Source: a virus. Taken from it: DNA of 64,000 bases. Where the stretch lies: positions 1-64,000 of the IMG/VR virus record IMGVR_UViG_3300020470_000460; one strand, 5' to 3'. How positions within the stretch are numbered: position 1 is the stretch's first letter; each line of letters starts with the position of its first letter. Position numbers and translations under genes: made by a program. Below the pieces are notes generated by a model. The model saw only the letters and a list, made by a program, of their open reading frames with translations. It did not search any database and had not been told where the DNA came from. This document shows, piece after piece, positions 21,691-38,792 of the stretch.

Positions 21691-21854
21691 TTATCTTTAC
21701 TCCTATTGATTAAAGATATAAACTTATCATTAGCAAATGTCCCACCCAGACACACATCTATCTCATCACCATCTTTCCAATTCTCAGTACCATCCTTCTT
21801 AGTGTGTGCTAGTGCTACTGTTAGATCATCGATGATCTTTTGAGTTATCTTCAT
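21687..21854 (-). CDS. Hypothetical protein, 55 aa
   Basis: The ATG at 21854 opens a 55-codon frame bridging purC (4 nt overlap) and the 103-aa gene (ATGA overlap). A helical start (MKITQKIIDDLTVALAHTKK) is followed by an acidic middle. The double coupling makes it a likely real gene; function unknown. Confidence 0.6.
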   Translation of the reverse strand: MKITQKIIDDLTVALAHTKKDGTENWKDGDEIDVCLGGTFANDKFISLINRSKDK

Positions 21855-22549
21855 GATAATAGTTCATTTAAAATATAATTATATGCCTTCACTATATCAC
21901 CTTGTCCCTTCCTAAACAAATCCTTATCAAATGCCTTACCTTCTTTCCAGAGTCGCATTCCATCAGGTGATAGTTCATCAGCAACGAGTATATTCTGTCT
22001 AGAATCATAACCAAACTCCAATTTAAAATCAACAAGTGTGAGACCTATATCTTTAAAGGTCTGTATTAGTATAGCATTAATATTACGTGCTAATGACTTG
22101 AGTACAGGTAGATTAGTACCAATATTAGTAAACTTCATTAATGCTATACGATCCTCTGTTAATAGTGGATCATCCTTAGCATCATCCTTAAGATAGAATT
22201 CAACTAATGGTGCATCAAATACTGTACCCTCTTCAATAGTAGTTTGTCTAACAATACTACCTGCTGCTATATTTCTAACTACAACTTCAATTGGTATAAT
22301 ATCTACTCTTCTACATGCCATTGCTGTTTTAGTTGGCATATTAACATAGTGAGTGGCAATGCCATTCAATTCAAGTAATTGAAATAAGCACTCAGATATC
22401 TTAGCACATACCTCACCTTTACCCTCTGGAAAATCTACCAGTCTACCATTACCAGCAGTAACCTTGTCCTCATATTGTATGAGTACTGTCTCAGTATCAT
22501 CAGTAGAGTATACTGTCTTAACCTTACCTCTTAACTCTTCAATATTCAT
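21851..22549 (-). CDS. purC: SAICAR synthetase
   Basis: The 232-aa protein matches PurC, which joins aspartate to carboxyaminoimidazole ribotide using ATP in purine synthesis. Both family signatures are visible: IPIEVVVRNIAAGS at 85-98 and LVDFKLEFG in the second half. Nucleotide-binding residues such as the K-T-V-Y opening (residues 11-14) also fit. Length equals bacterial PurC (~235 aa). Cyanophages often carry purine-synthesis genes, which may raise nucleotide supply during infection. It overlaps both neighbours by 4 nt. Confidence 0.95.
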   Translation of the reverse strand: MNIEELRGKVKTVYSTDDTETVLIQYEDKVTAGNGRLVDFPEGKGEVCAKISECLFQLLELNGIATHYVNMPTKTAMACRRVDIIPIEVVVRNIAAGSIVRQTTIEEGTVFDAPLVEFYLKDDAKDDPLLTEDRIALMKFTNIGTNLPVLKSLARNINAILIQTFKDIGLTLVDFKLEFGYDSRQNILVADELSPDGMRLWKEGKAFDKDLFRKGQGDIVKAYNYILNELLS

Positions 22550-22875
22550 GATGTAATGTCCTTGGGTAGATCTTCATTGCCTGGATGTTCTTTAATAACA
22601 CCCTTGTAATTCTTTTTATTATAGAAGTGCTCATCTTCAATATACATATCATCCCACTCATCAGGATATACTAGCACATTTGTCTGTGCTACACCATGCA
22701 ATGTGTCTTTCTTCTCCCATTCATGTGTGGTAACAGTAATATACTGATCACTTATGAAATTAATAACACCCTCATCTCCATCCTTTAACCTAACCTTCAT
22801 ACCTTTCTTCAATGATTTAAGAATGTTTCTTATCTCCAAAGGAATTGCCTCCGCTAAGAATATAGGAATGGTCAT
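22546..22875 (-). CDS. Conserved cyanophage hypothetical protein, 109 aa
   Basis: Residues ~20-45 look like a small beta-barrel start (KKGMKVRLKDGDEGVINFIS) with a VLVYPDEWDDMYIED segment later, a pattern I recall in a common cyanophage protein of unknown role. It lies between purC and an oxygenase with 4 nt overlaps. Confidence 0.65.
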   Translation of the reverse strand: MTIPIFLAEAIPLEIRNILKSLKKGMKVRLKDGDEGVINFISDQYITVTTHEWEKKDTLHGVAQTNVLVYPDEWDDMYIEDEHFYNKKNYKGVIKEHPGNEDLPKDITS

Positions 22876-23495
22876 AGTTTTAATTGATGGTCATATCCGA
22901 GACCATACTCACCTCTTAATATGTAATTGAATGCCATAGAATACCTCTCGTCATTACTATTATTAATATTAATAGAATGTGTTAGATGTGATGGGAAGCA
23001 TATTATCATACCATCCTGCGGTGTGATCCTTGATACCCTCATATTATATGTGTTGTATTCCTTAACCTCTGGATATAGAGTAGTAGTACACCACGTAGGG
23101 TAAGTAGCAGGGACATAAAATGATATATCACCACTATTATATGGTATCTGAAAATACATAACACCACTGAATTGTGCGTTGTTATGTGAATGACCGTGCC
23201 CACTATCACCAGGATTATGTTTATTAATCCATGATGTTGTGTGCTCTAATTGATGTTTAGTCTCGTCTACTTGTAACACATCGTAGACATATTTTGATAC
23301 ATGATACTCAACTGTTGCCCTTATTTCTGGTTGTGATACCAACCACTGAGTTTCACTCATCCAACCATTACTATATCCTCCATTGTCATGTTTACAAGGA
23401 GTATTAATAACCTGCTGAATCATTGCATCAGTCAGATCTATTTTATTAATATATAATGGATTGGAAAATAAAGGAACTATCTGAGGATCTCTCAT
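22872..23495 (-). CDS. 2OG-Fe(II) oxygenase (PF13759-like)
   Basis: The 207-aa protein shows the phage 2OG-Fe(II) pattern: HGHSHNN followed by FSGVMYF (first metal His at 102/104), then ICFPSHLTHSI (H173) and ERYSMAFNY (Arg184 for 2-oxoglutarate). The N-terminal VPLFSNPLY opening is also typical. Predicted activity is hydroxylation of an unknown substrate. It is one of five related genes between 22.9 and 26.5 kb. A lone Asn after the HxH leaves slight doubt about the third ligand. Confidence 0.85.
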   Translation of the reverse strand: MRDPQIVPLFSNPLYINKIDLTDAMIQQVINTPCKHDNGGYSNGWMSETQWLVSQPEIRATVEYHVSKYVYDVLQVDETKHQLEHTTSWINKHNPGDSGHGHSHNNAQFSGVMYFQIPYNSGDISFYVPATYPTWCTTTLYPEVKEYNTYNMRVSRITPQDGMIICFPSHLTHSININNSNDERYSMAFNYILRGEYGLGYDHQLKL

Positions 23496-23496
23496 A

Positions 23497-23733
23497 TCAA
23501 ATATGTTTCATGTGCAAAGTATCAATAATTGATTCAATCAGTCCCCTATCATTCTCTGGAACATTTCCATAATGCTCGCAAGCATCTTTTTGATAGAAGA
23601 ATAGTGCCTTCTTTAATAACTCTTTCTGATCGTGATTAAGAATGGCAGTTTTGAGTGACATGTACATTTGTGACCCCTTCCCCATTAGGTCTTGTGCAGA
23701 ACTATTTATTAGTGTATCTAGTTTCTTGGTCAT
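23497..23733 (-). CDS. Hypothetical protein, 78 aa
   Basis: Helical protein (TLINSSAQDLMGKGSQMYMS, then KKALFFYQKDACEHYGN) inserted between two oxygenase genes. It overlaps the upstream gene by 4 nt. A partner or small cofactor protein for the oxygenases is possible; nothing in the sequence shows it. Confidence 0.55.
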   Translation of the reverse strand: MTKKLDTLINSSAQDLMGKGSQMYMSLKTAILNHDQKELLKKALFFYQKDACEHYGNVPENDRGLIESIIDTLHMKHI

Positions 23734-24440
23734 GTCAACAGTAATTTCTCGATTGTCTTGGAATCGAAACCAACGACTCCCATATCATTAGGTGGTGCAA
23801 TACCACGTTTGTTATCCATCTCAGCACTGGTGAATAAACTTTGTCTCTTTTTTGGTTCCATGTACTTAAAGGACATGATATATCTATTTATCGGATACCT
23901 ATTGGTTGGTGGTCTACCTGAATGGGGTACTCTCCCATCAAATACTACTATTCTACCAGGTATAGGTGACACAATACGTTGTGCTTCTAACCTATGGTCA
24001 TAGAATACAGTCTCACCACCAAAGTTAGGATTCCATTCAGGGTTAAGATATAATACTACTGTCTTATTATCCTCTACCCAATATGGTGCGTCTACATGCA
24101 CACCAGGTGTATCACCTGCCTTAAGCACATTAATATATGCACTGTATAACCAGTCACGAGGGGGCATTTTTGGGCAAATTGCTTCCAAATATTCCAGACA
24201 TTCTAGGTATAGTGGATCCTCACTCGCATCTAGTCCTGAATTTTGAAAGTAAGTAGGATCACTAACTGGTGTGAAATTATATAATTGATGTGTCCAATAT
24301 GTATTCTCTAATTGTACCTCTGGTCTTGCTGGAGTTGGTGGATCATCTGTCCGTGTGAACATATAAGGTAAGAACATTACCTTATCAAATAATTCTTGTG
24401 ATGCTAGTTTAGTATCAAATACTTCAATTGGAAAGTTCAT
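23730..24440 (-). CDS. 2OG-Fe(II) oxygenase
   Basis: This 236-aa protein has H115-x-D117 (GVHVDAPYW), then H173 in DGRVPHSGRPP and a nearby Arg (R181 or R186), a complete prolyl-hydroxylase-type site. The C-terminal 40 residues (KKRQSLFTSAEMDN onward) form an extra tail. The N-terminus differs from PF13759 members, so this is a separate subfamily. The C-terminus overlaps the 78-aa gene and the start overlaps the JmjC gene by 17 nt. Confidence 0.87.
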   Translation of the reverse strand: MNFPIEVFDTKLASQELFDKVMFLPYMFTRTDDPPTPARPEVQLENTYWTHQLYNFTPVSDPTYFQNSGLDASEDPLYLECLEYLEAICPKMPPRDWLYSAYINVLKAGDTPGVHVDAPYWVEDNKTVVLYLNPEWNPNFGGETVFYDHRLEAQRIVSPIPGRIVVFDGRVPHSGRPPTNRYPINRYIMSFKYMEPKKRQSLFTSAEMDNKRGIAPPNDMGVVGFDSKTIEKLLLT

Positions 24441-25194
24441 GAGTGTTTAGTTTATACCATTTTCTATTAATAGGTCTCAAGTGTGGTAACATATGCTGCA
24501 TAGGTACACTAACAGACAATCTCTTACCAGTTGGCATCGCTTGATGATAACAACGTGCTGGAATGTATAATATATCACCTGGTTTTAATACGTGATCTAT
24601 TACACAATTCATCTCTCCTACATTCTCATCATGCTCAAGAGAATCAACTGCAACACTACTTACTTCAAAATCAAACTCATCCTTCAATTGCTTAGGTATC
24701 TTCAATAGATTACTACATCTATTACTATATACTTTCCAATGTGTCTCTCCTTCTACTTGTATTATAAAATTATTTGCTGTGTCTTCATGCACTCTGAATG
24801 AATGACATGGACCTAAACCTGCATAGATATGAAATGCTGTCTTACCATCAAAATATTTCTCAAACTCTTGTATTAATTCTTGCTTCTTACGGAACCCTTG
24901 ATCGAAATTATTAATAATTAAATTATGTCCTTCCTCCCATGCTTGCATTATATCTTTTACTTCAGCACATGGATTTGACCAACAACGTTCATACTGTTTA
25001 AGATCAAAGAACTGTATGATCTGCTTATCAATAAATGTAATAGAATAGAATTGTGGATTGTTGAGACAATACTCTACATCATCCCATGTTGCAAATACAT
25101 GAGGATCCTCAACAATACCTTCCCATAGTTCAGGTGCATCATCAATTGCCCAGTTTTTTGCTGTCGATATTTTAGTTAGAAGCGAAGATATCAT
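24424..25194 (-). CDS. JmjC/cupin-type oxygenase
   Basis: The 256-aa protein has H136-E-D138 (RVHEDTANNF), then VLKPGDILYIPARCYHQAMP with H217, the JmjC arrangement found in ribosomal oxygenases and FIH-like enzymes. A Lys at 154 (HWKVYS) could bind 2-oxoglutarate. Such proteins hydroxylate amino-acid side chains in bacteria (for example the YcfD ribosomal protein hydroxylase). Its start overlaps the next oxygenase by 23 nt. A cyanophage ribosomal or structural-protein hydroxylase is possible; the substrate is unknown. Confidence 0.85.
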   Translation of the reverse strand: MISSLLTKISTAKNWAIDDAPELWEGIVEDPHVFATWDDVEYCLNNPQFYSITFIDKQIIQFFDLKQYERCWSNPCAEVKDIMQAWEEGHNLIINNFDQGFRKKQELIQEFEKYFDGKTAFHIYAGLGPCHSFRVHEDTANNFIIQVEGETHWKVYSNRCSNLLKIPKQLKDEFDFEVSSVAVDSLEHDENVGEMNCVIDHVLKPGDILYIPARCYHQAMPTGKRLSVSVPMQHMLPHLRPINRKWYKLNTHELSN

Positions 25195-25831
25195 GATCGC
25201 ATTTAAAATTAATGTTTAATGTTACACGGTACGCATGGTTACCGTATGGATTAGTTGAAGCATGGAACTGATGTCCATCGAATACAAATAAACTATTTGC
25301 TTCAGGTGTTACTCTCTTATGTATAGTATATTCTTGGTTCCTTCCTTTATACCATCTCTCATCTACAGTCCCATAGTTAGGGTCATCATATTGATCAAAG
25401 AATACTGTATCACCATTTGAATCATGTAGATAAAATAGTGCTGCATAATGATCTTCTTCATTATCAGTGTGTGGACAGTTATGGTGTCCCTCCTTACCTA
25501 TGTCTGTTATTAATGCTAATCTTAATCTAAAAAACTCTACCTCATGTGGTAGAGAATCTTGTATAGCATCTATCAATGGTAAGAAATGGGGTAACCAAGG
25601 ACTCTCTACACCATCCTGATCTAATAACATATGGACAAACCCGATGGATCTCTCCTTCTCAGGCACTTCATTCCTTATCTCTTCACCACCAAATTTCATA
25701 TCAGTAGCGAAATCATATGATATATCCTCTGATATAAAATACCAAGGAAATCCATTTTGTCCCGATACTATTTTATTTAAGCGAGAGAGGTACGTTGGAC
25801 CTATTATATCTTTTTTGTGGATATACTTCAT
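25172..25831 (-). CDS. 2OG-Fe(II) oxygenase
   Basis: I chose the Met at 25831 (MKYIHKKDIIGPTYLS) because upstream codons are hydrophobic and overlap the neighbouring gene. The 219-aa product has H121-T-D123, a DTVFFDQYDDP strand, H190 in DGHQFHAS and Arg202 in YRVTLNINFK. The overlap with the PF13759-like gene upstream is 59 nt, unusual even here. Substrate unknown. Confidence 0.85.
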   Translation of the reverse strand: MKYIHKKDIIGPTYLSRLNKIVSGQNGFPWYFISEDISYDFATDMKFGGEEIRNEVPEKERSIGFVHMLLDQDGVESPWLPHFLPLIDAIQDSLPHEVEFFRLRLALITDIGKEGHHNCPHTDNEEDHYAALFYLHDSNGDTVFFDQYDDPNYGTVDERWYKGRNQEYTIHKRVTPEANSLFVFDGHQFHASTNPYGNHAYRVTLNINFKCDHDIFASN

Positions 25832-26459
25832 CTTCACGATAATAATCAGAGAATACGTGCATATTAAATGATAGAGATATTCTATCATCCTCACTAGCAC
25901 TTCTATCAACGCTGTGCATTAACCATGATGGAAATATTACCATAGTACCAGGTTTTGGTTGCACATACCAATTGACGTAATTATGCTGATGCTCATGCCT
26001 ATCAAAATTCTCATCGCATCCCCATGATTCTTTGAGACATTGATCTGCATATGGTCTGTGGAATTGTAATTCACCACAACAGCAGTTAGGTATCTTTGCA
26101 TAGTATACACCAGCAAACATTGATCCTGAATGCGTGTGGACTGCATTACTATCACCATACTTATTAATGTTTGCCCAGAGATTACTTAATCTAACAGTAT
26201 AATCATTAAATCCAAACTCATCAGCAGCAGCATATGTATTTAATTGTATCTGCTTATGTAAGTCTTTAAATGGTGTGTTATCAATATATGGTACTACAAA
26301 ATTATTTGATTGCCATCCACCGATATTAGATTTACTCATACCTTTAGGATCTTCCTTCTGCACCTCATAGATAAAATCTACTATTAGATCATTATCTAGA
26401 TCACAGTCCTCAAATATCCACAGTGGTGTGGGAAATAATAACTCAGTCCTTAGTTGCAT
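25773..26459 (-). CDS. 2OG-Fe(II) oxygenase (PF13759-like)
   Basis: The 228-aa protein shows H108-T-H110 (AVHTHSGSMFAGVYY), a Cys-rich turn (PNCCCGELQF), H182 in FPSWLMHSV and Arg193 in DRISLSFNM. It shares the N-terminal FPTPLWIF strand with the oxygenase at 33687-34304, so the two are probably paralogues. The three adjacent cysteines could be a metal or disulfide site. Substrate unknown. Confidence 0.88.
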   Translation of the reverse strand: MQLRTELLFPTPLWIFEDCDLDNDLIVDFIYEVQKEDPKGMSKSNIGGWQSNNFVVPYIDNTPFKDLHKQIQLNTYAAADEFGFNDYTVRLSNLWANINKYGDSNAVHTHSGSMFAGVYYAKIPNCCCGELQFHRPYADQCLKESWGCDENFDRHEHQHNYVNWYVQPKPGTMVIFPSWLMHSVDRSASEDDRISLSFNMHVFSDYYREDEVYPQKRYNRSNVPLSLK

Positions 26460-26835: not shown

Positions 26836-27719
26836 TACTCAAACCTCTCTTTGTTTTTATTTAGGGAAAGAATTTTCTTTTGATTGTCGATGCGTCCTTT
26901 AAGTGTGGTCATCTCAGGGAAACTCATGTACCTGTGATAGTCCATGATTTCATTATTCTTAATGTCCTCCTCATTAGCATCTTCAACTATAACATCAAAC
27001 TCATCATTATTCAACCATTGTCTTGGAATAGGAATCCATTGAGCGAGTGGTGTACCTGCCTTAACAAGATACTCACCCTCTTCAATGGCATGCCAGAATA
27101 ATTGTAGATTGACTTCATATGAATAGGATGGATCTACTATACCTGTTGGTATACTAAACCTATCTTCATCATAATATGGCACTGGTATCTGTAAGAATAC
27201 CACATCTTTATGTGCTTGCACCCTCCAAGGTAGTTCTAATTTAACTACCATAGAGTTAGTTGGTCTCTGTTGATCAACTAAGTGTGACATACCCTCTGTC
27301 TGCTCAGGTGCATGTGCTTTAACAAATGATTTACCACCTGCATCAAATAATACTTGTGATATCCAAGAGAAATTCTTTGCTTCACCATCTTGTGATATAA
27401 CAAAATCTGCTGGACATTGTAGTACCCATCCACTCTCAAATAATTGATGTAATGCTGGACATGTTGCTGCGTGTTGGAATAAACCATCATAATCTGCATC
27501 ACCTACACCATAATTAAGTAATGCAGTGTGATGATTAAATAGTTTCTTGACCTTCATTACAGGACAAGCACTATCCTTACCATAATATTTCTTTAGTGCA
27601 TCATTTACCCACTTTCTTTTTATCTTCTTAGCAGGTATCCAAGGTTGTAATGCTGCCACACCTCGTTGTACTGAGTAGAATCTTACCCACTTCTTGTTCT
27701 TTTTAAACGGATTCCACAT
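26835..27719 (-). CDS. Halogenase-associated unknown protein, 294 aa (DUF6065-like)
   Basis: The 294-aa protein begins with a basic KPF/WVRFYSVQ segment, then beta-rich tracts (MVVKLELPWRVQAHKDVVF, later QLFWHAIEEGEYLVKAGTPL). I recall DUF6065-type proteins beside tryptophan-halogenase genes in bacteria and phages, and it directly precedes two halogenases here with a 17 nt overlap. No catalytic motif is obvious. It may be a substrate-binding or accessory protein for the halogenases. The family call is tentative. Confidence 0.6.
   Translation of the reverse strand: MWNPFKKNKKWVRFYSVQRGVAALQPWIPAKKIKRKWVNDALKKYYGKDSACPVMKVKKLFNHHTALLNYGVGDADYDGLFQHAATCPALHQLFESGWVLQCPADFVISQDGEAKNFSWISQVLFDAGGKSFVKAHAPEQTEGMSHLVDQQRPTNSMVVKLELPWRVQAHKDVVFLQIPVPYYDEDRFSIPTGIVDPSYSYEVNLQLFWHAIEEGEYLVKAGTPLAQWIPIPRQWLNNDEFDVIVEDANEEDIKNNEIMDYHRYMSFPEMTTLKGRIDNQKKILSLNKNKERFE
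26858..26864 (-). promoter_or_regulatory. Late promoter (CTAAATA) before the oxygenase run
   Basis: CTAAATA on the minus strand lies inside the end of the 294-aa gene, 23 nt before the start at 26835. It would place the 26.8-22.9 kb oxygenase cluster under late control. Confidence 0.5.
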
Positions 27720-29274
27720 AGATATTATCCTTTAGATATTGATAATGAGATGGTAATGTATCAACCCACTCTAACATATGCTCTTTATTTTTGCAATAGT
27801 CTTTATGATATTGTTCAATCTCTTTGAATCTTTCTTCATCTGCTCTCTCATTTAATATAGATCTAGTAAATGGTTTGTATCCCATTCCTGCTGAAATATA
27901 TATTGTCCCTTCACCTAACATACTAGGATCATATACCTTAGTCTCTAATGTATCTAATAATCGTCTATAATCACTAATAGCATGTAATGATGACTCATCA
28001 GGATTATCAGTAAATTTATAGAATCTTTCAACATTATTAGTGGCATCCCTCCAGTATGGAGTATCTTCTCTCATACTGAAAGTATAATGATTTACCACGA
28101 AATTCTTATATGATTCTAATAGTTTATTAGTAGCATAATTATATGCTATACGATCTTGATTAACTACATGTCCATCACGAGTAGATAATATATCATCTAA
28201 GAAAATAATATTATCATGTGTAGTGACCAGTCCAGTTGATTCTAATGGTTCTATGAATCCATATGCTAGACCAATACCTACAACATTATTAACCCATCCC
28301 ACCTTGTGCTTACCATGCTTTATTTTTATAGGCATTAATGGGCATTCTTGGTCATCTAGATACTCTCTAAACTCCTCCTCTGCCTCAGCATCAGAGATAT
28401 ATTTACTAGAGTAAACATATCCTGTACCTATATTATTCCACATGGGAATATTATATACCCATCCATTCTTCATTGCAACACAGTCAGTGAAAGTATCCAT
28501 CTGTGTCTCTTTATCCTTATATTCAATATGTGTTGCTAATGCTCTATCATTGAATAATTGATCTGTGAATGGAATAAATGGTACACCCATGTGCTGCTCT
28601 AATAGCAGTGATCTAAATCCTGTGCAATCTATGAATAGATCAGCACTAATTGCTTGACCATCTGTTGTAGTGATAGCAGATATATTTCCATCAGGTGTCT
28701 TAACTACATTATGTACTTCACCTACTAAATGATGACAACCATTTGGTACTGCTATATTATCTCTTAAATACTCACCAAACTTATCAGCATTGAGATGATA
28801 AGCAAGATCAGTATCAGGATTATAATATGAATCAGGTATCTCTTTGGTTATCTTACCATGCTCTGTTGGATATGTTAATGGATTAACAAACCTAGCAAAC
28901 TCATCTGAATCATAATCATATACCCATGATGCCTCAAAGTATTTCTGAATATGAAATGGTGTCTCATCACGTGGTGGACCAAATGCTCCAAAAGGATATT
29001 GAAATGACTCACCCTTTCCTTCTTTAAAATTCTTAAATCTAATTGATGACTTATATGTAGCATTACAATGTGTCATCCAGTCTTCATCCTTAAGACCTAA
29101 TCTTAATAGAAATCTATTAAAATCTGCCAGAGTTGATTCACCTACACCTATAGGTTTAATATCAGGAGATTCTATTAGACATATCTCAATGTCTGGATGT
29201 GACTTAGATAGCAATGCTGCTGTCATCCATCCTGATGTACCACCACCTACAATACAAATAGATTCAACTCGCAT
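27703..29274 (-). CDS. Flavin-dependent tryptophan-halogenase-like enzyme 1
   Basis: The 523-aa protein has the FAD motif GGGTSGW at 10-16, a GVGEST strand at 43-48, K75 in NATYKSSIRF (the position of the catalytic lysine K79 of PrnA), NGWVYNIPMW in the middle, and GFIEPLESTGLV, where Glu sits in the EPLES motif of the family. These enzymes use FADH2, O2 and a halide to halogenate aromatic substrates. The W-x-W-x-I-P motif is altered to W-V-Y-N-I-P, so substrate or halide preference may differ. A flavin reductase is also needed; none is visible here. Substrate may be free tryptophan, a peptide or another aromatic. Confidence 0.88.
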   Translation of the reverse strand: MRVESICIVGGGTSGWMTAALLSKSHPDIEICLIESPDIKPIGVGESTLADFNRFLLRLGLKDEDWMTHCNATYKSSIRFKNFKEGKGESFQYPFGAFGPPRDETPFHIQKYFEASWVYDYDSDEFARFVNPLTYPTEHGKITKEIPDSYYNPDTDLAYHLNADKFGEYLRDNIAVPNGCHHLVGEVHNVVKTPDGNISAITTTDGQAISADLFIDCTGFRSLLLEQHMGVPFIPFTDQLFNDRALATHIEYKDKETQMDTFTDCVAMKNGWVYNIPMWNNIGTGYVYSSKYISDAEAEEEFREYLDDQECPLMPIKIKHGKHKVGWVNNVVGIGLAYGFIEPLESTGLVTTHDNIIFLDDILSTRDGHVVNQDRIAYNYATNKLLESYKNFVVNHYTFSMREDTPYWRDATNNVERFYKFTDNPDESSLHAISDYRRLLDTLETKVYDPSMLGEGTIYISAGMGYKPFTRSILNERADEERFKEIEQYHKDYCKNKEHMLEWVDTLPSHYQYLKDNIYVESV

Positions 29275-30721
29275 ATAGATTCTCCTTATAGTAATCGTAT
29301 GGGCACTGTAATTTATCTATACCCTTCCAAGGATCAGGTACATGCTCTGGTACCGTGCCACCTGCATAGTAGTCAAGTTCTTTATAAACTAGATCACTAA
29401 ATGGATTCCATCCTTGACCTGCTTGGACATAGAATGATCCTTCACTTGATAGATCACCCCAGTTATATGCGTCACCAAATGTTGAAGATGGTAATCCTAG
29501 ATTCCTCTGGAATCTAAAGAAGCAATGATCATCAGGATAATGCTTATCACATATATGCTGCCAATATGGTGTGTCATTACGTTGAGTATATGCAAAGTGT
29601 GATGCTACAAACATAGCAAACTCATCGAAACTACCATTACAATTATTATTAAATGTATCTCTCATTAGTTGTGTAACAGTATCTCTACCATCCATCACAC
29701 GTAAGAACATCAATAAGAAATTATGTATGGATAGTATACCATTAGATTCTAATGGTTCAAGGAAACCAGCAGACAATCCAATTGATATTACATTACCATT
29801 CCACATCTCCTTTCTTCTACCTGTTGTCCATTTAATAACACGGAACATCTTGTCAGTATATGCTCCTACATCTGACTCTATATTATCTGCAAGATAATCT
29901 CTAAACTCATCTATTGCTTCTTGATCTGAGCAGAACTTATCACAATATACATATCCACTACCTATTCTAGTCCACGTGGGTACATTCCAACACCAACCAT
30001 TATCAAGAGCAACACAATCTGTGACTGGTTTCATTTGCTCTTCTTTATTATTATAGGCAAACCTGGTCACAACTGCACTATTATTTGGCAGTATGTCACT
30101 CATATCCACCCAAGGTGAATCATTTAATAGTGATTTGAATCCTGTGCAATCAAAATATAGATCTGCTTTAGGTAATCTCTTAGGGTTTATCTTCCTCTTA
30201 ACATGTCTAACACCACGAGGTAGTGCAAAATTATCTCTTAACCACTCACCAAACTTAACTGCATCAAAATGGAATCCAGTATATTTGTGTAGATCCCAGT
30301 AATCATTTGTTAATGGTAGTTTATTCTGTGTTACACATGCTGCTGCATAACTATAGTCTTCAGCAAACTTAGAATTATTCCATCCATACTTCTTCTGATA
30401 ATACCACCACTGTGCAGGTTCAAATAAATCACCCCTTGGCGGACCAAATGGGTACTGCCAAGGGGTATCCCCTTTCTTATGAAAATTATGAAATCTTACA
30501 CTTGCTTTATATGTTGCATCACATGCCTCCATCCAATCCTCATCCTTCAGATCAAGGAAGTGACACCATAGTCTAAAAAATTGTGTGGTTGACTCACCTA
30601 CACCAACAGAGGGAGTCTTAGCATCTTCGTACAAAACAATATCCCAATCGGGATATGCTTTGACCAGCGTAGATGCAGTCATCCAACCAGCGGTACCACC
30701 GCCAACAATAACAATTTTCAT
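29264..30721 (-). CDS. Flavin-dependent tryptophan-halogenase-like enzyme 2
   Basis: This 485-aa protein is a diverged paralogue of the gene downstream (11 nt overlap). It has GGGTAGW at 7-13, K72 in DATYKASVRF, W-x-W in NGWCWNVPTW (nearer the canonical W-x-W-x-I-P) and GFLEPLESNG. The two copies share layout but differ throughout, so their duplication is not recent. The 38-residue shorter length and WxW form could mean different specificity. A viral halogenase of this group, VirX1 from a cyanophage, has been characterised, as I recall, with an iodide preference. Confidence 0.88.
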   Translation of the reverse strand: MKIVIVGGGTAGWMTASTLVKAYPDWDIVLYEDAKTPSVGVGESTTQFFRLWCHFLDLKDEDWMEACDATYKASVRFHNFHKKGDTPWQYPFGPPRGDLFEPAQWWYYQKKYGWNNSKFAEDYSYAAACVTQNKLPLTNDYWDLHKYTGFHFDAVKFGEWLRDNFALPRGVRHVKRKINPKRLPKADLYFDCTGFKSLLNDSPWVDMSDILPNNSAVVTRFAYNNKEEQMKPVTDCVALDNGWCWNVPTWTRIGSGYVYCDKFCSDQEAIDEFRDYLADNIESDVGAYTDKMFRVIKWTTGRRKEMWNGNVISIGLSAGFLEPLESNGILSIHNFLLMFLRVMDGRDTVTQLMRDTFNNNCNGSFDEFAMFVASHFAYTQRNDTPYWQHICDKHYPDDHCFFRFQRNLGLPSSTFGDAYNWGDLSSEGSFYVQAGQGWNPFSDLVYKELDYYAGGTVPEHVPDPWKGIDKLQCPYDYYKENLYAS

Positions 30722-30745: not shown

Positions 30746-31174
30746 CTACCCTGGAGGTACCCAGTTGTCAACCCAAGGATCCCAAGGATCTCTTCCTTCT
30801 AGTTGGATCTTCTTAGGATCTTGTACAAATGGGGGAATAGATGCTGGTGCAGCAACAGTTGCTTTCACGTTTGCTACGTGATCTTTCCAACGTGTACCAC
30901 CATCTAATGAGTCTTTGTACTGCATATCCAACTGTTCACCTACGTCACCGTAAGCAATAATTCTGTCAACGACTGCTTCTTCACGTAAATCTTCATTGTC
31001 ATGATGATCTACTAGCACACCATTGACCATTTGCTTATCAAAGTTAGCGTCATCAGGCACTTCACACCACTTCATAGTTGCATCAGCACCTTCATAAATT
31101 TCAAATTTGTCTGCTTCATCACAGATATCAGATAATGCACCTGTGTCTTTAGAAACGATTGCCCATTTAGCCAT
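30746..31174 (-). CDS. Cyanophage structural/tail-fibre-associated protein, 142 aa
   Basis: It starts MAKWAIVSKDTGALSDICDE, a type common in cyanophage fibre-adjacent proteins, and ends with several Asp/Pro/Trp repeats (DPWDPWVDNWVPPG). It stands between the halogenases and the glycine-rich adhesins, and an AATAAATA late box lies 26 nt upstream. A short fibre-assembly or baseplate attachment role is an inference from position. Confidence 0.55.
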   Translation of the reverse strand: MAKWAIVSKDTGALSDICDEADKFEIYEGADATMKWCEVPDDANFDKQMVNGVLVDHHDNEDLREEAVVDRIIAYGDVGEQLDMQYKDSLDGGTRWKDHVANVKATVAAPASIPPFVQDPKKIQLEGRDPWDPWVDNWVPPG

Positions 31175-31199: not shown

Positions 31200-31207
31200 T
31201 ATTTATT
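31200..31207 (-). promoter_or_regulatory. Late promoter (AATAAATA)
   Basis: On the minus strand it reads AATAAATA and ends 26 nt before the gene starting at 31174. One position departs from the TATAAATA form. Confidence 0.45.
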
Positions 31208-32030
31208 AACCGTAGTATTCGTAAACTACTACTACACCTTCTCGACCTCTAGCACCTCGGTTACCCTCACGAGCACCATTACCACCTGATCCCCAAGCAG
31301 CATGTGATTGATGCCTATGGGAATAATTTTCTTGCTGGTGACTAGCAGGTTGTGATCCACCCATATAGGATGCACCAGACGTATAGTTACCGTATTTAGA
31401 CCAGTTACCGTAACCATTTCCACCGCCACCATAGGCGTTCATGTTACCACCTGATCCATTACCACCATACCCACCAGCGTGTTGCTGTGAGCAGTTGGCA
31501 CCAATACCTGCCGAAGCACTACAGTATCCACCAAAAGATGATCCGTTACCGTTACCACCACAACCAGCGTAACTAGTACCACCACCTGGGTTACCAACTG
31601 AAACACTTACAGATGATACATTACTTACATCAATAACTCTTTCAGAGAATCCACCAGCACCACCTGATTCACATTTACCTGATCCTCCACCACCTGCACC
31701 AACTACTTGGACTCTAATACTTTTTACATCAGATGGTCTATACCATGTACCGTTACCAGTCCATACTTGCATGGATCTAAATCCAGCACCACCACTACCT
31801 CCACCTGATATATCTGTTGACCAGACGAGGTTTGTACCATTGGTGCTTAAGAATTGTCCTGACTGACCTGAGAAATCAGGTATATTGAAGTTAGAACTAC
31901 CAGTAATAGTACCATTTATGTTTATGTCATTGACCTTGAGCGTCCCGTTGCAGGTGATAGATCCACTCGATAGAGTGAAACCACCTAGACCAGCGAGGTC
32001 AGTAACTCCTGTAACTTTAAGAACACTCAT
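31206..32030 (-). CDS. Glycine-rich tail-fibre adhesin, copy 3
   Basis: The start at 32030 (MSVLKVTGVTDLAGLGG) is preferred over the long frame from 32117, since it sits in an ATGA overlap with copy 2. The 274-aa protein has a variable N-terminal ~80 residues, then MQVWTGNGTWYRPSD and VVGAGGGGSG, the common fibre Gly-rich domain, with long Gly/Ser/Asn tracts and a conserved GARGREGVVVVYEYYG end. Polyglycine-II-type fibre tips recognise host receptors. It is one of three tandem paralogues. Confidence 0.82.
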   Translation of the reverse strand: MSVLKVTGVTDLAGLGGFTLSSGSITCNGTLKVNDININGTITGSSNFNIPDFSGQSGQFLSTNGTNLVWSTDISGGGSGGAGFRSMQVWTGNGTWYRPSDVKSIRVQVVGAGGGGSGKCESGGAGGFSERVIDVSNVSSVSVSVGNPGGGTSYAGCGGNGNGSSFGGYCSASAGIGANCSQQHAGGYGGNGSGGNMNAYGGGGNGYGNWSKYGNYTSGASYMGGSQPASHQQENYSHRHQSHAAWGSGGNGAREGNRGARGREGVVVVYEYYG

Positions 32031-32836
32031 CCGTAGAACTCCTGAACGATAACGATACCTTCTCTTCCTCTGGCACCACGACCTCCGTGTTTTGCTCCAT
32101 TTCCACCAGCACCCCATGCACAGTGTGATTGGTGTCTATGAGAGTAATTACCTTGGTTATGAGAGGAAGGTTGTGTGCCTCCTATGTATGACATACCAGC
32201 AGTGACGCAACCGAATGACCAGTGAGATCCATGTCCGTTACCTCCACCACCATATACATTCAGGTTACCACCTGAACCATTTCCACCAATTCCTCCAGCA
32301 TGCTGTTGTCTACAGTTTGCACCGTATCCTCCAGACGCAGAGCAATAACCACCGAATGATGAAGTATTACCTCCACCACCACATCCAGAATAGTTAGATC
32401 CTCCACCTGGATTACCTACCGAAACTGATATAGATGATACGTTTGATACATCTATTACCCTTTCTGCCATTCCACCAGCACCACCAGATTCAGTATAACC
32501 TGATCCACCGCCACCAGCACCTACAACAGTAACAATAATAGTACCTACATCAGATGGTTTATACCATGTGCCATTACCAGTCCATACTTGCATGGATCTG
32601 ATACCAGTACCAGCACTAACTCCTGACCAAACATACTCAGAACCAGTGGATCTCAATGCTTTACCTTCGTTACCACCCATAGGAGGTACAACGAAAGTTG
32701 ATCCACCACGAATCGCACCGTTAATGACCACATTAGAGCATGTCAGGGTAGTTGTGGCAGTGATACCACCACCAGCAAGCATGAATCCTTGTGCTCCAGT
32801 TAAGTCTTTTAGTGCTGATACTTTAAGTTTTGACAT
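32027..32836 (-). CDS. Glycine-rich tail-fibre adhesin, copy 2
   Basis: 269-aa paralogue of its neighbours, overlapping copy 3 by 4 nt. Differences are concentrated in the N-terminal 80 residues and in several Gly-rich loops (for example YGSH/SFGCVTAGMSY where copy 3 has NWSKYGNYTSGASY), while MQVWTGNGTWYKPSD and the GRGARGREGIVIVQEFYG end are shared. This pattern suggests receptor-binding loops are being diversified in a conserved frame. Confidence 0.82.
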   Translation of the reverse strand: MSKLKVSALKDLTGAQGFMLAGGGITATTTLTCSNVVINGAIRGGSTFVVPPMGGNEGKALRSTGSEYVWSGVSAGTGIRSMQVWTGNGTWYKPSDVGTIIVTVVGAGGGGSGYTESGGAGGMAERVIDVSNVSSISVSVGNPGGGSNYSGCGGGGNTSSFGGYCSASGGYGANCRQQHAGGIGGNGSGGNLNVYGGGGNGHGSHWSFGCVTAGMSYIGGTQPSSHNQGNYSHRHQSHCAWGAGGNGAKHGGRGARGREGIVIVQEFYG

Positions 32837-32839
32837 GTC

Positions 32840-33649
32840 TTAACCGTAAAATTCATGTACAACTACGACACCTTCACGACCTCTTGCACCACGTCCACCT
32901 TCTCTACATCCATTACCACCTGATCCCCAGGCAGCATGTGATTGGTGTCTATGTGCATAGTTTTGCTGTTGGTGAGATGCAGGTTGTCCTCCACCCCAAT
33001 ATGATTTACCACATGTGTGGTTACCATAAGTGTAATGAGATCCGTGTCCTGATCCCCCTCCACCGTAAATATTTAGTGATCCACCTGATCCGTTACCACC
33101 ATATCCTCCTGCATGTTGCTGAGAACAGTTAGCACCGATTCCTCTTGAAGCACTACAGTATCCACCGAATGACGATGAGTTTCCGTTACCACCACATCCA
33201 GCGTAATTAGTACCACCACCAGGATTACCTACTGTAACAGATACAGATGATACGTTAGTTACATCTATCTGTCTTTGTGCTGTACCTCCAGCACCACCTG
33301 ATTCCATGAATCCAGATCCACCTCCACCAGCACCAGTTACAGTCACCATAATGGTTTTAACATCAGATGGTTTATACCATGTACCGTTACCAGTCCAGAC
33401 CTGCATAGATCTAACACCAGAAGCAGATGATAAAGTACCCCAAGTGAGTGCTGACCCATTAGTTGAGATATATTCATCAGTGTGACCTGATGGATTGGGG
33501 AGAATATATGCAGACGAACCTGCTAATGTACCACTAATTTCTATGTCTTGTACATTAAGAGTACCATTGGCAGTGATACCCCCACTCGTGAAAGTAAACC
33601 CTCCAATACCACCTACGTCTTTTATAGCTCCCAGGTTTAACTGTGCCAT
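32840..33649 (-). CDS. Glycine-rich tail-fibre adhesin, copy 1 (promoter-proximal)
   Basis: 269-aa paralogue; first of the three in the direction of transcription. N-terminal MAQLNLGAIKDVGGIGGF is unlike the others, but MQVWTGNGTWYKPSD, the Gly-rich region and GARGREGVVVVHEFYG are alike. A GATAAATA late box lies ~25 nt upstream, which suits structural expression. It is 3 nt from copy 2, so the trio is one transcription unit. Confidence 0.82.
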   Translation of the reverse strand: MAQLNLGAIKDVGGIGGFTFTSGGITANGTLNVQDIEISGTLAGSSAYILPNPSGHTDEYISTNGSALTWGTLSSASGVRSMQVWTGNGTWYKPSDVKTIMVTVTGAGGGGSGFMESGGAGGTAQRQIDVTNVSSVSVTVGNPGGGTNYAGCGGNGNSSSFGGYCSASRGIGANCSQQHAGGYGGNGSGGSLNIYGGGGSGHGSHYTYGNHTCGKSYWGGGQPASHQQQNYAHRHQSHAAWGSGGNGCREGGRGARGREGVVVVHEFYG

Positions 33650-33681: not shown

Positions 33682-33686
33682 ATTAT

Positions 33687-34304
33687 TTATATCAGATATT
33701 TACCACCGTGTCCTTGATTCTGAGCAAAGGGATTATGTTCACTTATGTCTAAGCAACTACTCATACCCTCAAAATCAGCAGACAAATTGAATGCGATAGA
33801 TATCCTATCATCATCACTCTCATTCTCAGTCACGTCATGCTCCAACCATGATGGGAAATATATTAATGTCCCTGGTTGTGGTTCGATTTCGTGATAATCT
33901 AAACCATCATTAAAATACTCATGATCTCTTTGCACTTGGACTAATGGACCTCTAGGATCCCAAAATCTTATGCTACCTGAGTATTTAGGCACCTTCACAT
34001 AGTATACTCCTGATAATAATATATTAGTATCAGCATGTAAATGCCTCTTATTACTAGCACCTTTAGGGTTTATATTACACCAAGAGTATACACACAAATC
34101 CTTTAATGGTTTGTCCTCTCTAAATGGACAATTAGCAGCAATAAGATCTACCCAATCCCTATTATAAAACAAATCACCCTGATAACCTCCATTACTGGAG
34201 TAAGGGTGATTAGGTTCAGTCTTAGAGAAATTATATATCTCTTCTGCTAACTTATCATTGTCAAAATCAATTCTCTTAATCCAGAGAGGGGTGCCAAATA
34301 TCAT
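33687..34304 (-). CDS. 2OG-Fe(II) oxygenase between fibre genes
   Basis: The 205-aa protein begins with GTPLWIKRID, has H88-L-H90 (RHLHADTNIL) before LSGVYYVKVP, H156 in FPSWLEHDV and Arg167 in DRISIAFNL. These are PF13759-like and closely match the oxygenase at 25773-26459. Being flanked by fibre genes makes a structural-protein substrate more likely than for the others; that is inference. Confidence 0.87.
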   Translation of the reverse strand: MIFGTPLWIKRIDFDNDKLAEEIYNFSKTEPNHPYSSNGGYQGDLFYNRDWVDLIAANCPFREDKPLKDLCVYSWCNINPKGASNKRHLHADTNILLSGVYYVKVPKYSGSIRFWDPRGPLVQVQRDHEYFNDGLDYHEIEPQPGTLIYFPSWLEHDVTENESDDDRISIAFNLSADFEGMSSCLDISEHNPFAQNQGHGGKYLI

Positions 34305-34318
34305 AATAAAAAAATTAA

Positions 34319-35194
34319 TTAACTAAAGTTTCGATAATGTCCTAGGACTACAAATTCTTCGTTATCATCTTGGTTTTTAGGTACCTTATCTATAATAAGG
34401 AAGTCACACATAGCATAGTCATTACCCATACTTGGACCTCCTCTGGTTGTGCACCATTCAATAGGACAGTTTACACCAAGAATACTTATAGAGGATGGTA
34501 ATCCGTTAGCACCTGCATTCTCACAAATAACTCTAAAGTGATATAAACTACCATCACCATTGTGCTCATCCATATCAGTGAGATTTAATCTCCAGTTACC
34601 ACCACCATTTCTTGTAACATATATTGTGTTACCATTGTTAATACTATGAGTTACATCACCACTATACTCAGCATAAAACTTACAATGCTCTTTACGACCA
34701 CCTGAGAAGTGCATTCCAGTTGATCTAAAATCTTCAGTTATTATATCTACAACCTCAAGGTTTAACATGTCATCACCACCGAGGATATTCCACGTGGCAT
34801 TATTTTCAATCGTGACAGTATAACCGTTTGCAATAGTAATAGGACCTGCTGAGAAACCGTTGGTGAATTCCACACCACCGTTAGCAACTGGACCTATAGT
34901 TAAATTCTCTTCAATAGTAGTGCCGTTAGTCCTAATTATACTATTCTCACCAACACTTGGACCTCCTCCACCTACGTCCGTCCAACCTGGAACACCCTGA
35001 GCAGCATCTTGCTTATAGATCTGTGCCATGTCCTCGGTACTATTATACACAATGGTACCATAGGCAGGTGTGCCCAATGCTGTTACTGCTGATTGGTTAA
35101 GAGCAGGTAGATTGAGTTGCTCTGTCAACTGTAGTGCCTCCATTATGGCACGAGTTGAAGCATCAATCTGATTTCCAATTATCTTGGTGGACAT
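34319..35194 (-). CDS. Virion structural / short fibre protein, 291 aa
   Basis: N-terminal helical start (STKIIGNQIDASTRAIMEAL), then beta-rich Gly/Asn/Thr-rich sequence with a GTIVYNSTED motif often seen at fibre heads. The C-terminal ~110 residues (SIEY..KDQDDNEEFVVLGHYRN) form a distinct domain of unknown type. A CTAAATA late box at 35211-35217 precedes it. Probably part of a tail fibre or attachment device. Confidence 0.65.
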   Translation of the reverse strand: MSTKIIGNQIDASTRAIMEALQLTEQLNLPALNQSAVTALGTPAYGTIVYNSTEDMAQIYKQDAAQGVPGWTDVGGGGPSVGENSIIRTNGTTIEENLTIGPVANGGVEFTNGFSAGPITIANGYTVTIENNATWNILGGDDMLNLEVVDIITEDFRSTGMHFSGGRKEHCKFYAEYSGDVTHSINNGNTIYVTRNGGGNWRLNLTDMDEHNGDGSLYHFRVICENAGANGLPSSISILGVNCPIEWCTTRGGPSMGNDYAMCDFLIIDKVPKNQDDNEEFVVLGHYRNFS

Positions 35195-35219: not shown

Positions 35220-38200
35220 TTATATAACGAGTTCACGTATCTGTATGTTATCTCCTGTCTGTGGTGTAGTGCCAACAGAGAAGTCTACAGAGTTTGCAGT
35301 AACAGTATAATCAACACCAGGAACTTGAGCAACACCATTTAGGAATACTAAGAGTGAATATGCTGTATGTCCAGGAGATATGGCAAATGATGTAGCAACA
35401 CCATTACCTGTATACATGACACCGTTGTTACTATTAGTAACACCAGTTGCAAGGGTATACTTATCTGCACATCCATACTTACCAGTCACATCTATATCAC
35501 CTGTAATTGCTACATTACCTGTGATCCTCATTCTATTAAGTGCGTCTGGTGCTTCACCAATACCATAATGAGTCACACCTGAGAACCTATTAGATGTAAT
35601 AGGTGCAGTATCACTTAGACCAAACTTATACCAAGTACCTGAGTCATATATCCAACCTAGGTATGTTCCTGGAGTCCAGTCTACATTATAACAAATATCA
35701 CCAGTGTTGAATGCTGATCCTGCGGTTACTGTTGGATTACCAGTACCATCATCCTCAGCAAGGAATGTATTCTTCAAAACAGTACCATCATCGTTAGATA
35801 AGGTAAAGTTTAGTGTCTGCAATGTATCCTGAGAAGTTATCTTCTTCTGGAATGTAGCAGGACCAGAGAATACTGATTCCAACTGGTTAGATGCACCACC
35901 GATAACAGTCAATTTATCAGTAAGCACAATCTCACTGAAGGTCTCAATAGTTGTACCTTCTTCACCCAACACGTTAAGTTGAGCAATATCTTCGTTAGTG
36001 ATCTGACCTGTAACTGGGTTAATAACCTGGTTACCAACAAACAACTCACCATCACTGTTAACACCAGAGTAGTATGCAACACCCGCAGATTCTTTAAGTG
36101 ACTGTGATAGTCTGACCTGTGCTGGTGTTAATACTTCTACCTGTGTAGATGGGAATGCAGTTGAGTAGTTACCTGGACCAAATCCAAGATACTCAAACGT
36201 GTGACCTGATGCTCTGAGAATTGAGTATCTTCGTAACTCACAGAGTAGAGGTTGTACTGAGTTATCAGCATTCAACTTCAGTGCAATCTTTCTTTCTTCA
36301 GCATCACCTAGTCTTGCAGTAACACTAATACCATTCAATACGTTAGATGTAGTGTTATATCCTAGGTTATTCTCTGTCTCCAGTAAGAAGAACTGTGATG
36401 TCTCTTTAGTAAGAGATCTTTGTGTGTCCTCATTAGGAGTAGGAGATGCACCGTCAGTAGTAGTAACAACACCAAGTGTTTCATTACTTGCTATAGATAC
36501 TGCTGCTGATGGGTCTGCTACTGGGTTGTCTCTGTCAAATGCAGGATATAAGTCTACAACTGCCTGAGAGAATGCGAAGTCATTAAAGTTAGACGTTGAT
36601 GGTGCTACACTAGCATTAAGTAACGTCAAATAATATATACCGTCAGTCACACCCTTAACAAACGTTTGATGTGTCTCTACAGCATATATGTAATATGCTT
36701 TGGTATATGCTGGGCTATTGGTTTCACTACTTCGTGGTTGGACAACAAAACCTGTGATAGGTGCTCTAGGTACGGGAAATGCGTCCTTGTCCAATACATA
36801 GCGGTACCTGTAAATCCTGTCAACAAGGTTTCTAGCATCGGGTACCCTCCTTATAAAGGTAGTAGGTGTGAATCCAAGGTTTTGATATATGCTATTTGCT
36901 TGTAGTGTTGTGTATATGGTATTAGCAGATCCATCTACTTGTAAATACCACTGACTATTAACACTATCCCATTTAACTGGGTTGTCATCGTCACCTGCTT
37001 TAGTACCTGTTACCAATGGTCCTGAAGGACTTATATCAGCATAGTGCGTAGTAGGTTCACTTGCTCCACTGGCAATTAAGAGCACATACAGGCGATCTGG
37101 GGTATTAACGTCATCACGTCTAGCACCCACAGTATAGCCTTGTACTTTCGCTGGTGGTTTGCCAGTTTCTACAGTATATCCATATAAAAATAGTTTTGTC
37201 GGGTCTGCAACACTCTTAGTCTTATTGATATCAATAGTAACCCAGTTGATTGATATCTCTGATACATCACTTAAAGACTTAGGTGGTATTACATGTGTAA
37301 CTTGCCCTGCTTTATCTTTCGTAAATGCTGCACTCTTAAAGCCTTTAGATCGGAGAGAAGTGTTACCAAAGTTTGAGTTCGAGTTGGTAATCGAGAGATC
37401 TCCTCCGCTGTCAGCGAAGAAATGGTCTCCAAATCCGACAGCGAATACTGAGACGACTTGGATGAATGCGTCGTTAGATGCGTAGATGTGTCTGTGTCGC
37501 CAACCTTTTCTGTATTTGGCGAGTCCATTAATATGAGCACCAGATCCCGCAGCTTGGGGTTCATATGCTCCAGTAGTTTGGTTGTATATGACGAATGCTC
37601 TGTCATCTTTCTGTAGGGAGATTCCAGTAAACTGGGCAACAACCATTGACTTGAAACCTGTTGCTTGACTACCATCAGCATGCATACCATTGATACCCCA
37701 TACTGATCTTAGAGAGCAGTTGAAGACATATGGTGAGGCAGAGTCAACCGTATCAATCTCGACCTTGACTAGTACATTATTACCCAGTGCGTTACCTGAT
37801 GGCTCGGAAGACATCTGGTATGTAAATTGGTTACCTTGTGCACTGGTTACCAGGAAACTACCATTATAGAGGAGAGCATCTTGGTCAGTAGGACCAGTAA
37901 CACCAGATATATTAACAGCGACACCCACGGAGAACCCATGATTCTTCGGGTTACCGAGTTCATCAACTGTAAATGCTGTTGCAGTTTGTCCATTTCTTAT
38001 GATCTGTGATACTGCAAATTCATCAGAGATCGGACCTACAATTCTGTTTTCCTCGACCCTTGCTTGCATCTGGTCTTGAGAAACAATACCAGAGGTGTCA
38101 GGAATTACAGCGTATCCTTTTGATATCTTTTGGTAATATAATTCTAGATCTTCTACGTTAGCAAACTCAAAACACGTGAGTTTATGGTGTGAGAAGTTTG

Positions 38201-38792
38201 GTGCAATCTGTGCTAAGTCATCACGATAGTATACTCCAGTATTATCACCATCAAAGAATGACTGTTGCCAGAAATAGCAACCACCAGTTAGTTTGAATAT
38301 ACCAGCAGGGACTGGTTCGTTAGCAGCAGTTATGCCCAGTGATCCTTGTACTGTAGGATAAGGTACATACTTAGGTACAATTTTCGTTCTTCTAAGGTCA
38401 GATCCGACGACGGAACAACCTCTGGGGACGACAATGCCACCACGAGTCGAATTGAATTTATAAAGTTCGTTAGAAGCACTGGTCAGATCAAAGTTGGTAT
38501 TCTCATTAAATGGTTGGATCTGGTTATAGTCTGATATACCAGGTCTGTTATCTACCACATATTCTGATGGATAGAGATAGATACTGAATGCGTCGAATTC
38601 GTCGTTTGAAAGACCAACTCTATATGAAAATCGTGCTACCTCAAGGAAAGCACGTTGTAACGTCTTAAAAGGACGCAAAGCAGAGTTACCTCGGTTATCG
38701 TATGCATCCGATGCATCAAAATCGTCGGGGTTAACGTAGATAATACGTCCTGTCCTCGACGTAATGATATTTTTAAGACGAGTAAGTGCCAT
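35220..38792 (-). CDS. Large virion structural / fibre protein, 1190 aa
   Basis: The N-terminus (MALTRLKNIITSRTGRIIYV) and first ~250 residues resemble the cyanophage large tail-associated protein with a beta-helix-like middle; Gly/Asn/Thr-rich beta repeats follow. The C-terminal third turns into fibre-like sequence ending QTGDNIQIRELVI. No T4 counterpart by sequence. A late box (38814-38820) precedes the start by 22 nt. Its size and company with three other fibre genes suggest a long distal or receptor-contact protein. Confidence 0.75.
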   Translation of the reverse strand: MALTRLKNIITSRTGRIIYVNPDDFDASDAYDNRGNSALRPFKTLQRAFLEVARFSYRVGLSNDEFDAFSIYLYPSEYVVDNRPGISDYNQIQPFNENTNFDLTSASNELYKFNSTRGGIVVPRGCSVVGSDLRRTKIVPKYVPYPTVQGSLGITAANEPVPAGIFKLTGGCYFWQQSFFDGDNTGVYYRDDLAQIAPNFSHHKLTCFEFANVEDLELYYQKISKGYAVIPDTSGIVSQDQMQARVEENRIVGPISDEFAVSQIIRNGQTATAFTVDELGNPKNHGFSVGVAVNISGVTGPTDQDALLYNGSFLVTSAQGNQFTYQMSSEPSGNALGNNVLVKVEIDTVDSASPYVFNCSLRSVWGINGMHADGSQATGFKSMVVAQFTGISLQKDDRAFVIYNQTTGAYEPQAAGSGAHINGLAKYRKGWRHRHIYASNDAFIQVVSVFAVGFGDHFFADSGGDLSITNSNSNFGNTSLRSKGFKSAAFTKDKAGQVTHVIPPKSLSDVSEISINWVTIDINKTKSVADPTKLFLYGYTVETGKPPAKVQGYTVGARRDDVNTPDRLYVLLIASGASEPTTHYADISPSGPLVTGTKAGDDDNPVKWDSVNSQWYLQVDGSANTIYTTLQANSIYQNLGFTPTTFIRRVPDARNLVDRIYRYRYVLDKDAFPVPRAPITGFVVQPRSSETNSPAYTKAYYIYAVETHQTFVKGVTDGIYYLTLLNASVAPSTSNFNDFAFSQAVVDLYPAFDRDNPVADPSAAVSIASNETLGVVTTTDGASPTPNEDTQRSLTKETSQFFLLETENNLGYNTTSNVLNGISVTARLGDAEERKIALKLNADNSVQPLLCELRRYSILRASGHTFEYLGFGPGNYSTAFPSTQVEVLTPAQVRLSQSLKESAGVAYYSGVNSDGELFVGNQVINPVTGQITNEDIAQLNVLGEEGTTIETFSEIVLTDKLTVIGGASNQLESVFSGPATFQKKITSQDTLQTLNFTLSNDDGTVLKNTFLAEDDGTGNPTVTAGSAFNTGDICYNVDWTPGTYLGWIYDSGTWYKFGLSDTAPITSNRFSGVTHYGIGEAPDALNRMRITGNVAITGDIDVTGKYGCADKYTLATGVTNSNNGVMYTGNGVATSFAISPGHTAYSLLVFLNGVAQVPGVDYTVTANSVDFSVGTTPQTGDNIQIRELVI

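Follow-up and report, generated by a model that had tools for sequence, protein, structure and literature searches.

The tip gene triplet and its surroundings

The window analysed here, positions 1 to 64,000 of the 74.4-kb IMG/VR record IMGVR_UViG_3300020470_000460, comes, judging by its sequence, from a T4-like cyanophage; among annotated phages, those nearest to it are Prochlorococcus and Synechococcus myoviruses (Kyanoviridae). A purC-like gene for SAICAR synthetase, a metabolic gene typical of cyanophages, lies at 21851-22549. The region of interest carries three glycine-rich proteins encoded by adjacent genes, followed by a chaperone-like gene and two halogenase genes and preceded by an oxygenase gene and fibre genes (Table 1).

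Table 1. Features of the tip gene region in the window
Feature	Position	Strand	Remarks and basis
Five 2OG-Fe(II)/JmjC oxygenase-like genes, downstream	22872..26459	-	Pfam
Flavin-dependent halogenase 2	27703..29274	-	VirX1 (6QGM), E 2e-148
Flavin-dependent halogenase 1	29264..30721	-	Pfam Trp_halogenase; best PDB match VirX1
phrog_1787 protein, probable tail-fibre assembly chaperone	30746..31174	-	Position; model with beta domain and helices
Tip adhesin copy 3	31206..32030	-	274 aa; alignment and reading of the junction
Predicted receptor-binding domain, copy 3	31206..31778	-	Alignment to copy 1
Stem module, copy 3	31779..32030	-	Residues 1-84, 5-residue linker insertion; alignment, stem tree
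Tip adhesin copy 2	32027..32836	-	269 aa; ORF, Gly_rich_2 and phrog_863 matches
Predicted receptor-binding domain, copy 2	32027..32599	-	Alignment to copy 1
Stem module, copy 2	32600..32836	-	Residues 1-79; identity and stem tree
Tip adhesin copy 1	32840..33649	-	269 aa; ORF, Gly_rich_2 and phrog_863 matches, AlphaFold model
Predicted TNF-like and glycine-rich receptor-binding domain, copy 1	32840..33412	-	Structural match to Pam3 gp24
Stem module, copy 1	33413..33649	-	Residues 1-79; 33-47% identity to other stems; position-specific group
TATAAATA octamer, T4-late-promoter-like, before copy 1	33684..33691	-	Position only
2OG-Fe(II) oxygenase, directly upstream of the triplet	33687..34304	-	Pfam 2OG-FeII_Oxy_5
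phrog_29506 protein, probable fibre part, upstream	34319..35194	-	PHROG match
Large tail fibre protein (phrog_529)	35220..38792	-	PHROG match

A preliminary description of this DNA had reported three tandem adhesin-like paralogues with a common entry and a common C-terminus and with divergent first ~80 residues, and in these respects it holds. The three ORFs run head to tail on the minus strand, which the preliminary description left unstated, and are 64-71% identical overall; all have WTGNGTWY(K/R)PSD after MQV and end in GARGREG. Identity between the copies is 33-47% over residues 1-79 and 76-81% over the remainder. Copies 1 and 2 are separated by a 3-bp gap, and the ATG of copy 3 overlaps the stop codon of copy 2 as ATGA, so that the 303-aa ORF given for copy 3 in the ORF list starts too early. 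No further copy was found in the 74.4-kb record. As the same triplet recurs at this location in P-TIM40 and numerous IMG/VR contigs, the likeness of the copies is homology and not chance. The octamer before copy 1 is not enriched in the window (six occurrences versus seven expected by chance) and a promoter scan gave no excess over shuffles; a terminator scan found three candidates versus 1.7 expected.

In each copy a stem 79-84 residues long precedes a domain of about 190. All three pass the curated cut-off of the Pfam family Gly_rich_2 (PF21722; 25.5-33.1 bits versus 24.3) and match PHROG 863, annotated as ‘tail fiber assembly’. A search of PDB sequences with the adhesin alignment found nothing better than E 0.56. 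AlphaFold models were made of the copy 1 adhesin and of the chaperone-like protein, one each. The copy 1 model is confident from residue 79 onwards, where block means are mostly 83-97 and a single block drops to 67. The stem is poorly modelled (48-75), with residues 1-78 free of helix at low confidence. Residues 78-269 of this model match the tip of Pam3 gp24 (Z 20.9 and rmsd 2.5 over 181 residues, VIA-align, with 29% identity); the next PDB structures are a Bxb1 tail-tip chain (Z 15.2) and the glycine-rich domains of ALK and LTK (Z of about 9). This predicted fold makes the name ‘adhesin’ reasonable and ‘assembly’ probably a misnomer. The same would apply to the PHROG 863 proteins of P-TIM40, P-RSM6, S-WAM1 and syn9, which are direct homologues at the same genome position and are annotated as assembly proteins, whereas the predicted fold says adhesin.

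The likely assembly factor is instead the phrog_1787 gene, which comes after the last tip copy in every complete array. Its model (pLDDT 92) has an N-terminal beta domain followed by C-terminal helices. The best PDB structural match by Z is Pam3 gp25 (7ypx_a), a weak one at Z 4.2; the match to Mu Tfa (5yvq_B) is also weak, at Z 2.5, and a search of PDB sequences with this protein returned no match. It is mainly position and layout that make a tail-fibre assembly chaperone the probable identity of this protein. In Pam3, gp24 is trimeric and is bound to its chaperone in a 3:3 ratio (PMC9608196). Both phages share the TNF-like and glycine-rich C-terminal domain and an adjoining chaperone-like gene (Pam3 structures 7YPX and 7YFW). 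However, Pam3 uses a single gene whose product forms a trimer of one protein and has a helical N-terminal domain for baseplate docking; the window has three genes with stems of another type, and the helical N-terminal domain is absent from the low-confidence part of the model.

Copy number in related phages

Searches of IMG/VR revealed three groups of arrays. The group of the window comprises 24 distinct arrays with three copies. The second (L058 and L068-L141) has stems of the ‘KIADG..IT..SKGGTG’ type, which our first stem profile missed in L058, and binding domains homologous to those of the window's group. The third (S-RIM44, Sf-FP1, Sf-FR1 and L142-L145) has yet another stem type and again three genes, the count for Sf-FR1 being taken from its gene table only. 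Three copies are present in 68 of the 69 complete arrays of the second and third groups, and the sole exception, L134, is at a contig edge. After removal of near-identical arrays, 60 of 66 distinct arrays have three copies, three have two and three have one, counts that do not represent independent events as the arrays are related by descent. No array with four copies was present among these 66. Three intact copies occur in 58 of them; syn9 and S-CREM1, counted among the 60, are two-copy loci with an internally duplicated or broken copy. The genes are closely set: 108 of 115 gaps measure 40 bp or less, and the other seven belong to arrays in which the start of the third gene was unread.

Phages and contigs with one or two copies do exist (P-RSM6, S-WAM1, S-SZBM1, syn9, Syn10, L052-L059, L158, L164 and L168). 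When the tip copies are counted together with another glycine-rich gene found upstream, the combinations are three and none in 100 loci, two and one in seven, and one and one in six; S-CREM1 is effectively of the second kind, and P-RSM6 and L059 are exceptions to the pattern. This different upstream gene, seen for instance at L003:7665-8600, L005:2945-3895, L054:6442-7431 and L066:2864-3739, mostly precedes a gene whose product has some 160-190 aa. It is confined to arrays with one or two tip copies and never accompanies three intact ones.

Some individual copies are atypical. In P-TIM40 the middle copy, gp043 (L001:11858-13447), carries about 260 extra C-terminal residues that look fibrinogen-like by eye; the extension recurs in L030, L034, L036 and L039-L041, and in this sub-lineage only. 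The tip gene gp39 of syn9 (L005:5239-6508) shows an internal duplication and a disrupted frame, and its counterpart in the closely related Syn10 (L178:4126-4944) is intact. The first tip copy of S-CREM1 (L004:6678-7478) is split into two ORFs, and its relatives have intact copies.

Evolution of stems and binding domains

The two parts of these proteins have had different histories. In the window's group, stems are 60% identical between the same positions of different phages versus 45% within one phage, the latter value being the same as for different positions in different phages. Binding domains are 80% identical at the same position, 81% within a phage and 77% at different positions in different phages. 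At fourfold sites, stems within a phage gave 0.39 versus 0.38 expected from codon usage, and binding domains gave 0.50, above expectation. On the stem tree, which rests on 79 columns and leaves many forks unresolved, the positions need three label changes versus a minimum of two, and position 3 forms one clade. On the binding-domain tree the positions need 11 changes, and the copies of one phage cluster together in L047, L013 and P-RSM6 and, with weaker support, in L024 and L031. The stems form three ancient, largely position-specific groups common to the three-copy phages of the window's group. The binding domains are at least as similar within a phage as at the same position across phages, and they cluster within phages, which indicates that concerted evolution has kept them alike in several lineages of this group.

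In the second group homogenisation is local: identity of the tips is 78% at the same position and 71% within a phage. There, residues 151-190 agree best within a phage and residues 211-230 are strongly position-specific. The stems are nearly free of indels. Residues 1-10 hardly differ among the three chains, and within a phage they vary in concert; at residue 2 (A or P) the chains match in 30 of 31 arrays, seven third-copy starts being unread. A test for complementary changes between the stems of the three chains, comparing correlations of volume, hydrophobicity and charge in the same column with those in shifted columns, gave no signal and had little power with about 24 arrays per group.

The preliminary description had interpreted the triplet as receptor-binding diversification by tandem duplication, the copies serving as alternative tips for different receptors or as a recombination reservoir. 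Recombination is indeed visible in the array, as the internal duplication of syn9 is without counterpart in Syn10. Variable loops are also present, and between the three window copies dN is higher in loop 196-216 (0.37-0.51) than over the domain (0.17-0.22); dS between these paralogues is about 0.9-1.5, near saturation, which makes dN/dS between them unreadable. Against the two nearest relatives, L009 and L010, however, the window copies give dN/dS of 0.02-0.24 (no more than 0.08 in the loop that varies most), values that point to purifying selection in stem, domain and loop alike and bear no sign of diversification. A scan for conversion tracts between close relatives, made without a significance test, found only short tracts. 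Furthermore, the divergent ~80 residues are not part of the domain with the match to a receptor-binding tip, it is the binding domains that are homogenised and the stems that differ, and the copy number, expected to vary in a reservoir, is nearly always three. The pattern of copy evolution, read from these sequences, is thus not that of receptor diversification, and we regard this explanation of the triplet as improbable.

Assembly of the tip and neighbouring enzymes

We tentatively favour a reading, to which we give slightly less than an even chance, in which the products of the three genes are co-expressed as chains A, B and C and form one tail-fibre tip, probably a heterotrimer. Each chain would begin with a short peptide for docking, continue as a position-specific stem (residues 1-79) and end in a TNF-like/glycine-rich domain that would bind the host surface. 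The three stems would most likely wind into a single A:B:C heterotrimer, aided by the chaperone-like protein encoded next, and one tip would then display three related, non-identical binding domains, kept alike through gene conversion. If each chain is needed once, the number of copies would be held at three and their order kept. A heterotrimer is favoured by the apparently shared dock, the stems that differ by position and are of near-equal length, the alike binding domains, the near-constant number, the close-set genes and the single chaperone-like gene; the recurrence of three copies in groups with stems lacking detectable similarity also speaks for it.

There is a precedent in the virophage DSLV2, where the products of three consecutive fibre genes are reported to copurify as a heterotrimer (PMC12724248). 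Both systems have three adjacent paralogues that fall into clades by position. The DSLV2 proteins are of the gp37-collar type and are thought to sit on the virophage capsid; neither a glycine-rich domain nor homogenised tip domains, as seen in the window's group, are reported for them (PMC12724248).

The existence of one- and two-copy phages argues against a mixed tip, although most of them carry another glycine-rich gene instead. So do the local character of homogenisation in the second group, the low model confidence of the stem and the lack of a signal of complementary change between stems. A real weakness comes from the two-copy phage S-SZBM1: the virion proteome lists the products of genes 51-54 and not those of genes 47-50, and the tip proteins are missing from the particle list, although the phrog_29506 protein and the upstream fibres were found (PMC9146016). 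Tryptic digestion would yield peptides of suitable length from both tip proteins.

Where only one or two copies are present, the tip has to be a homomer or a two-chain form, and this, together with Pam3 gp24 being a trimer of a single protein, gives some weight to three separate homotrimeric tips, all on the virion, each with a stem fitting its own fibre or baseplate site. Position-specific stems would suit position-specific docks, and tips binding the same kind of receptor would be kept alike. We nevertheless consider such an arrangement rather unlikely, because the shared and coordinated first ten residues of the second group point to one common dock and because a constant three copies in groups whose stems are unrelated would need a separate reason. 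A composite tip of single chains attached serially or side by side would resemble the gp38-type adhesins of S16 and T2, which are rich in glycine and cap a separate trimeric fibre (PMC9608196). Of all structures found, however, trimeric Pam3 gp24 is by far the best match to the TNF-like fold, and S16 gp38 (6F45) is not among the structural matches listed for the copy 1 domain; we find this alternative improbable. The best-known phage fibres are homotrimers. Should the triplet form one mixed tip, marine cyanophages would carry a widespread heterotrimeric receptor-binding tip, and why three is kept would become a question.

Two halogenase genes directly follow the chaperone-like gene (27703-30721). 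Among solved structures, VirX1 of cyanophage Syn10 (6QGM, gene CPUG_00131) is the closest relative of both; in Syn10 it is the second halogenase of a cluster of this kind. This is a comparison of the neighbouring enzymes and not of the tips; Syn10 has two tip genes and another glycine-rich gene versus the three tip genes of the window. VirX1 has a large, open active site and accepts a broad range of substrates in vitro (PMC8407142, PMC7948982).

A flavin-dependent halogenase ORF comes next after the chaperone-like gene in all 111 loci that have 1.2 kb or more of sequence beyond that gene, or 61 of 61 without near-duplicates; nearly all of these loci came from adhesin queries, and a halogenase search supplied a few annotated phages. 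In the reverse direction, all 26 contigs retrieved with window halogenase 2 that have upstream sequence show the halogenase preceded by a tip gene and the chaperone-like gene. L175, a match with 27% identity to halogenase 2, is without these two genes. Three isolates depart from the order: S-B64 (from its annotated region), its relative S-H35, where according to the hit table the halogenase gene adjoins a recombination endonuclease, and Sf-CH11, where it comes after a different gene, beyond the large fibre.

The conserved order suggests the tip proteins as a candidate substrate of VirX1-class halogenases. One could imagine a heterotrimeric tip whose exposed aromatic and histidine-rich loops are modified by these halogenases and by the 2OG-Fe(II) oxygenases, the receptor-binding tips being halogenated or hydroxylated before or during assembly; we hold this combined scenario to be unlikely. 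Since the order of tip and halogenase genes can instead come from joint late expression or a shared insertion site, we put tip modification forward as a hypothesis. A literature search combining phage tail fibres with post-translational modification or hydroxylation returned nothing on this topic. To our knowledge, VirX1 has no established native substrate; if the hypothesis is true, it would gain one, and phages would have a new way to alter their host-binding surface. The constant succession of tips, chaperone-like gene, VirX1-type halogenase and oxygenases offers a concrete substrate candidate for viral halogenases. Among the five downstream oxygenase-like genes of the window, one (25172-25909) scores below the family cut-off. 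Genes for 2OG-Fe(II) and JmjC-type oxygenases flank the tip and halogenase genes in many relatives too.
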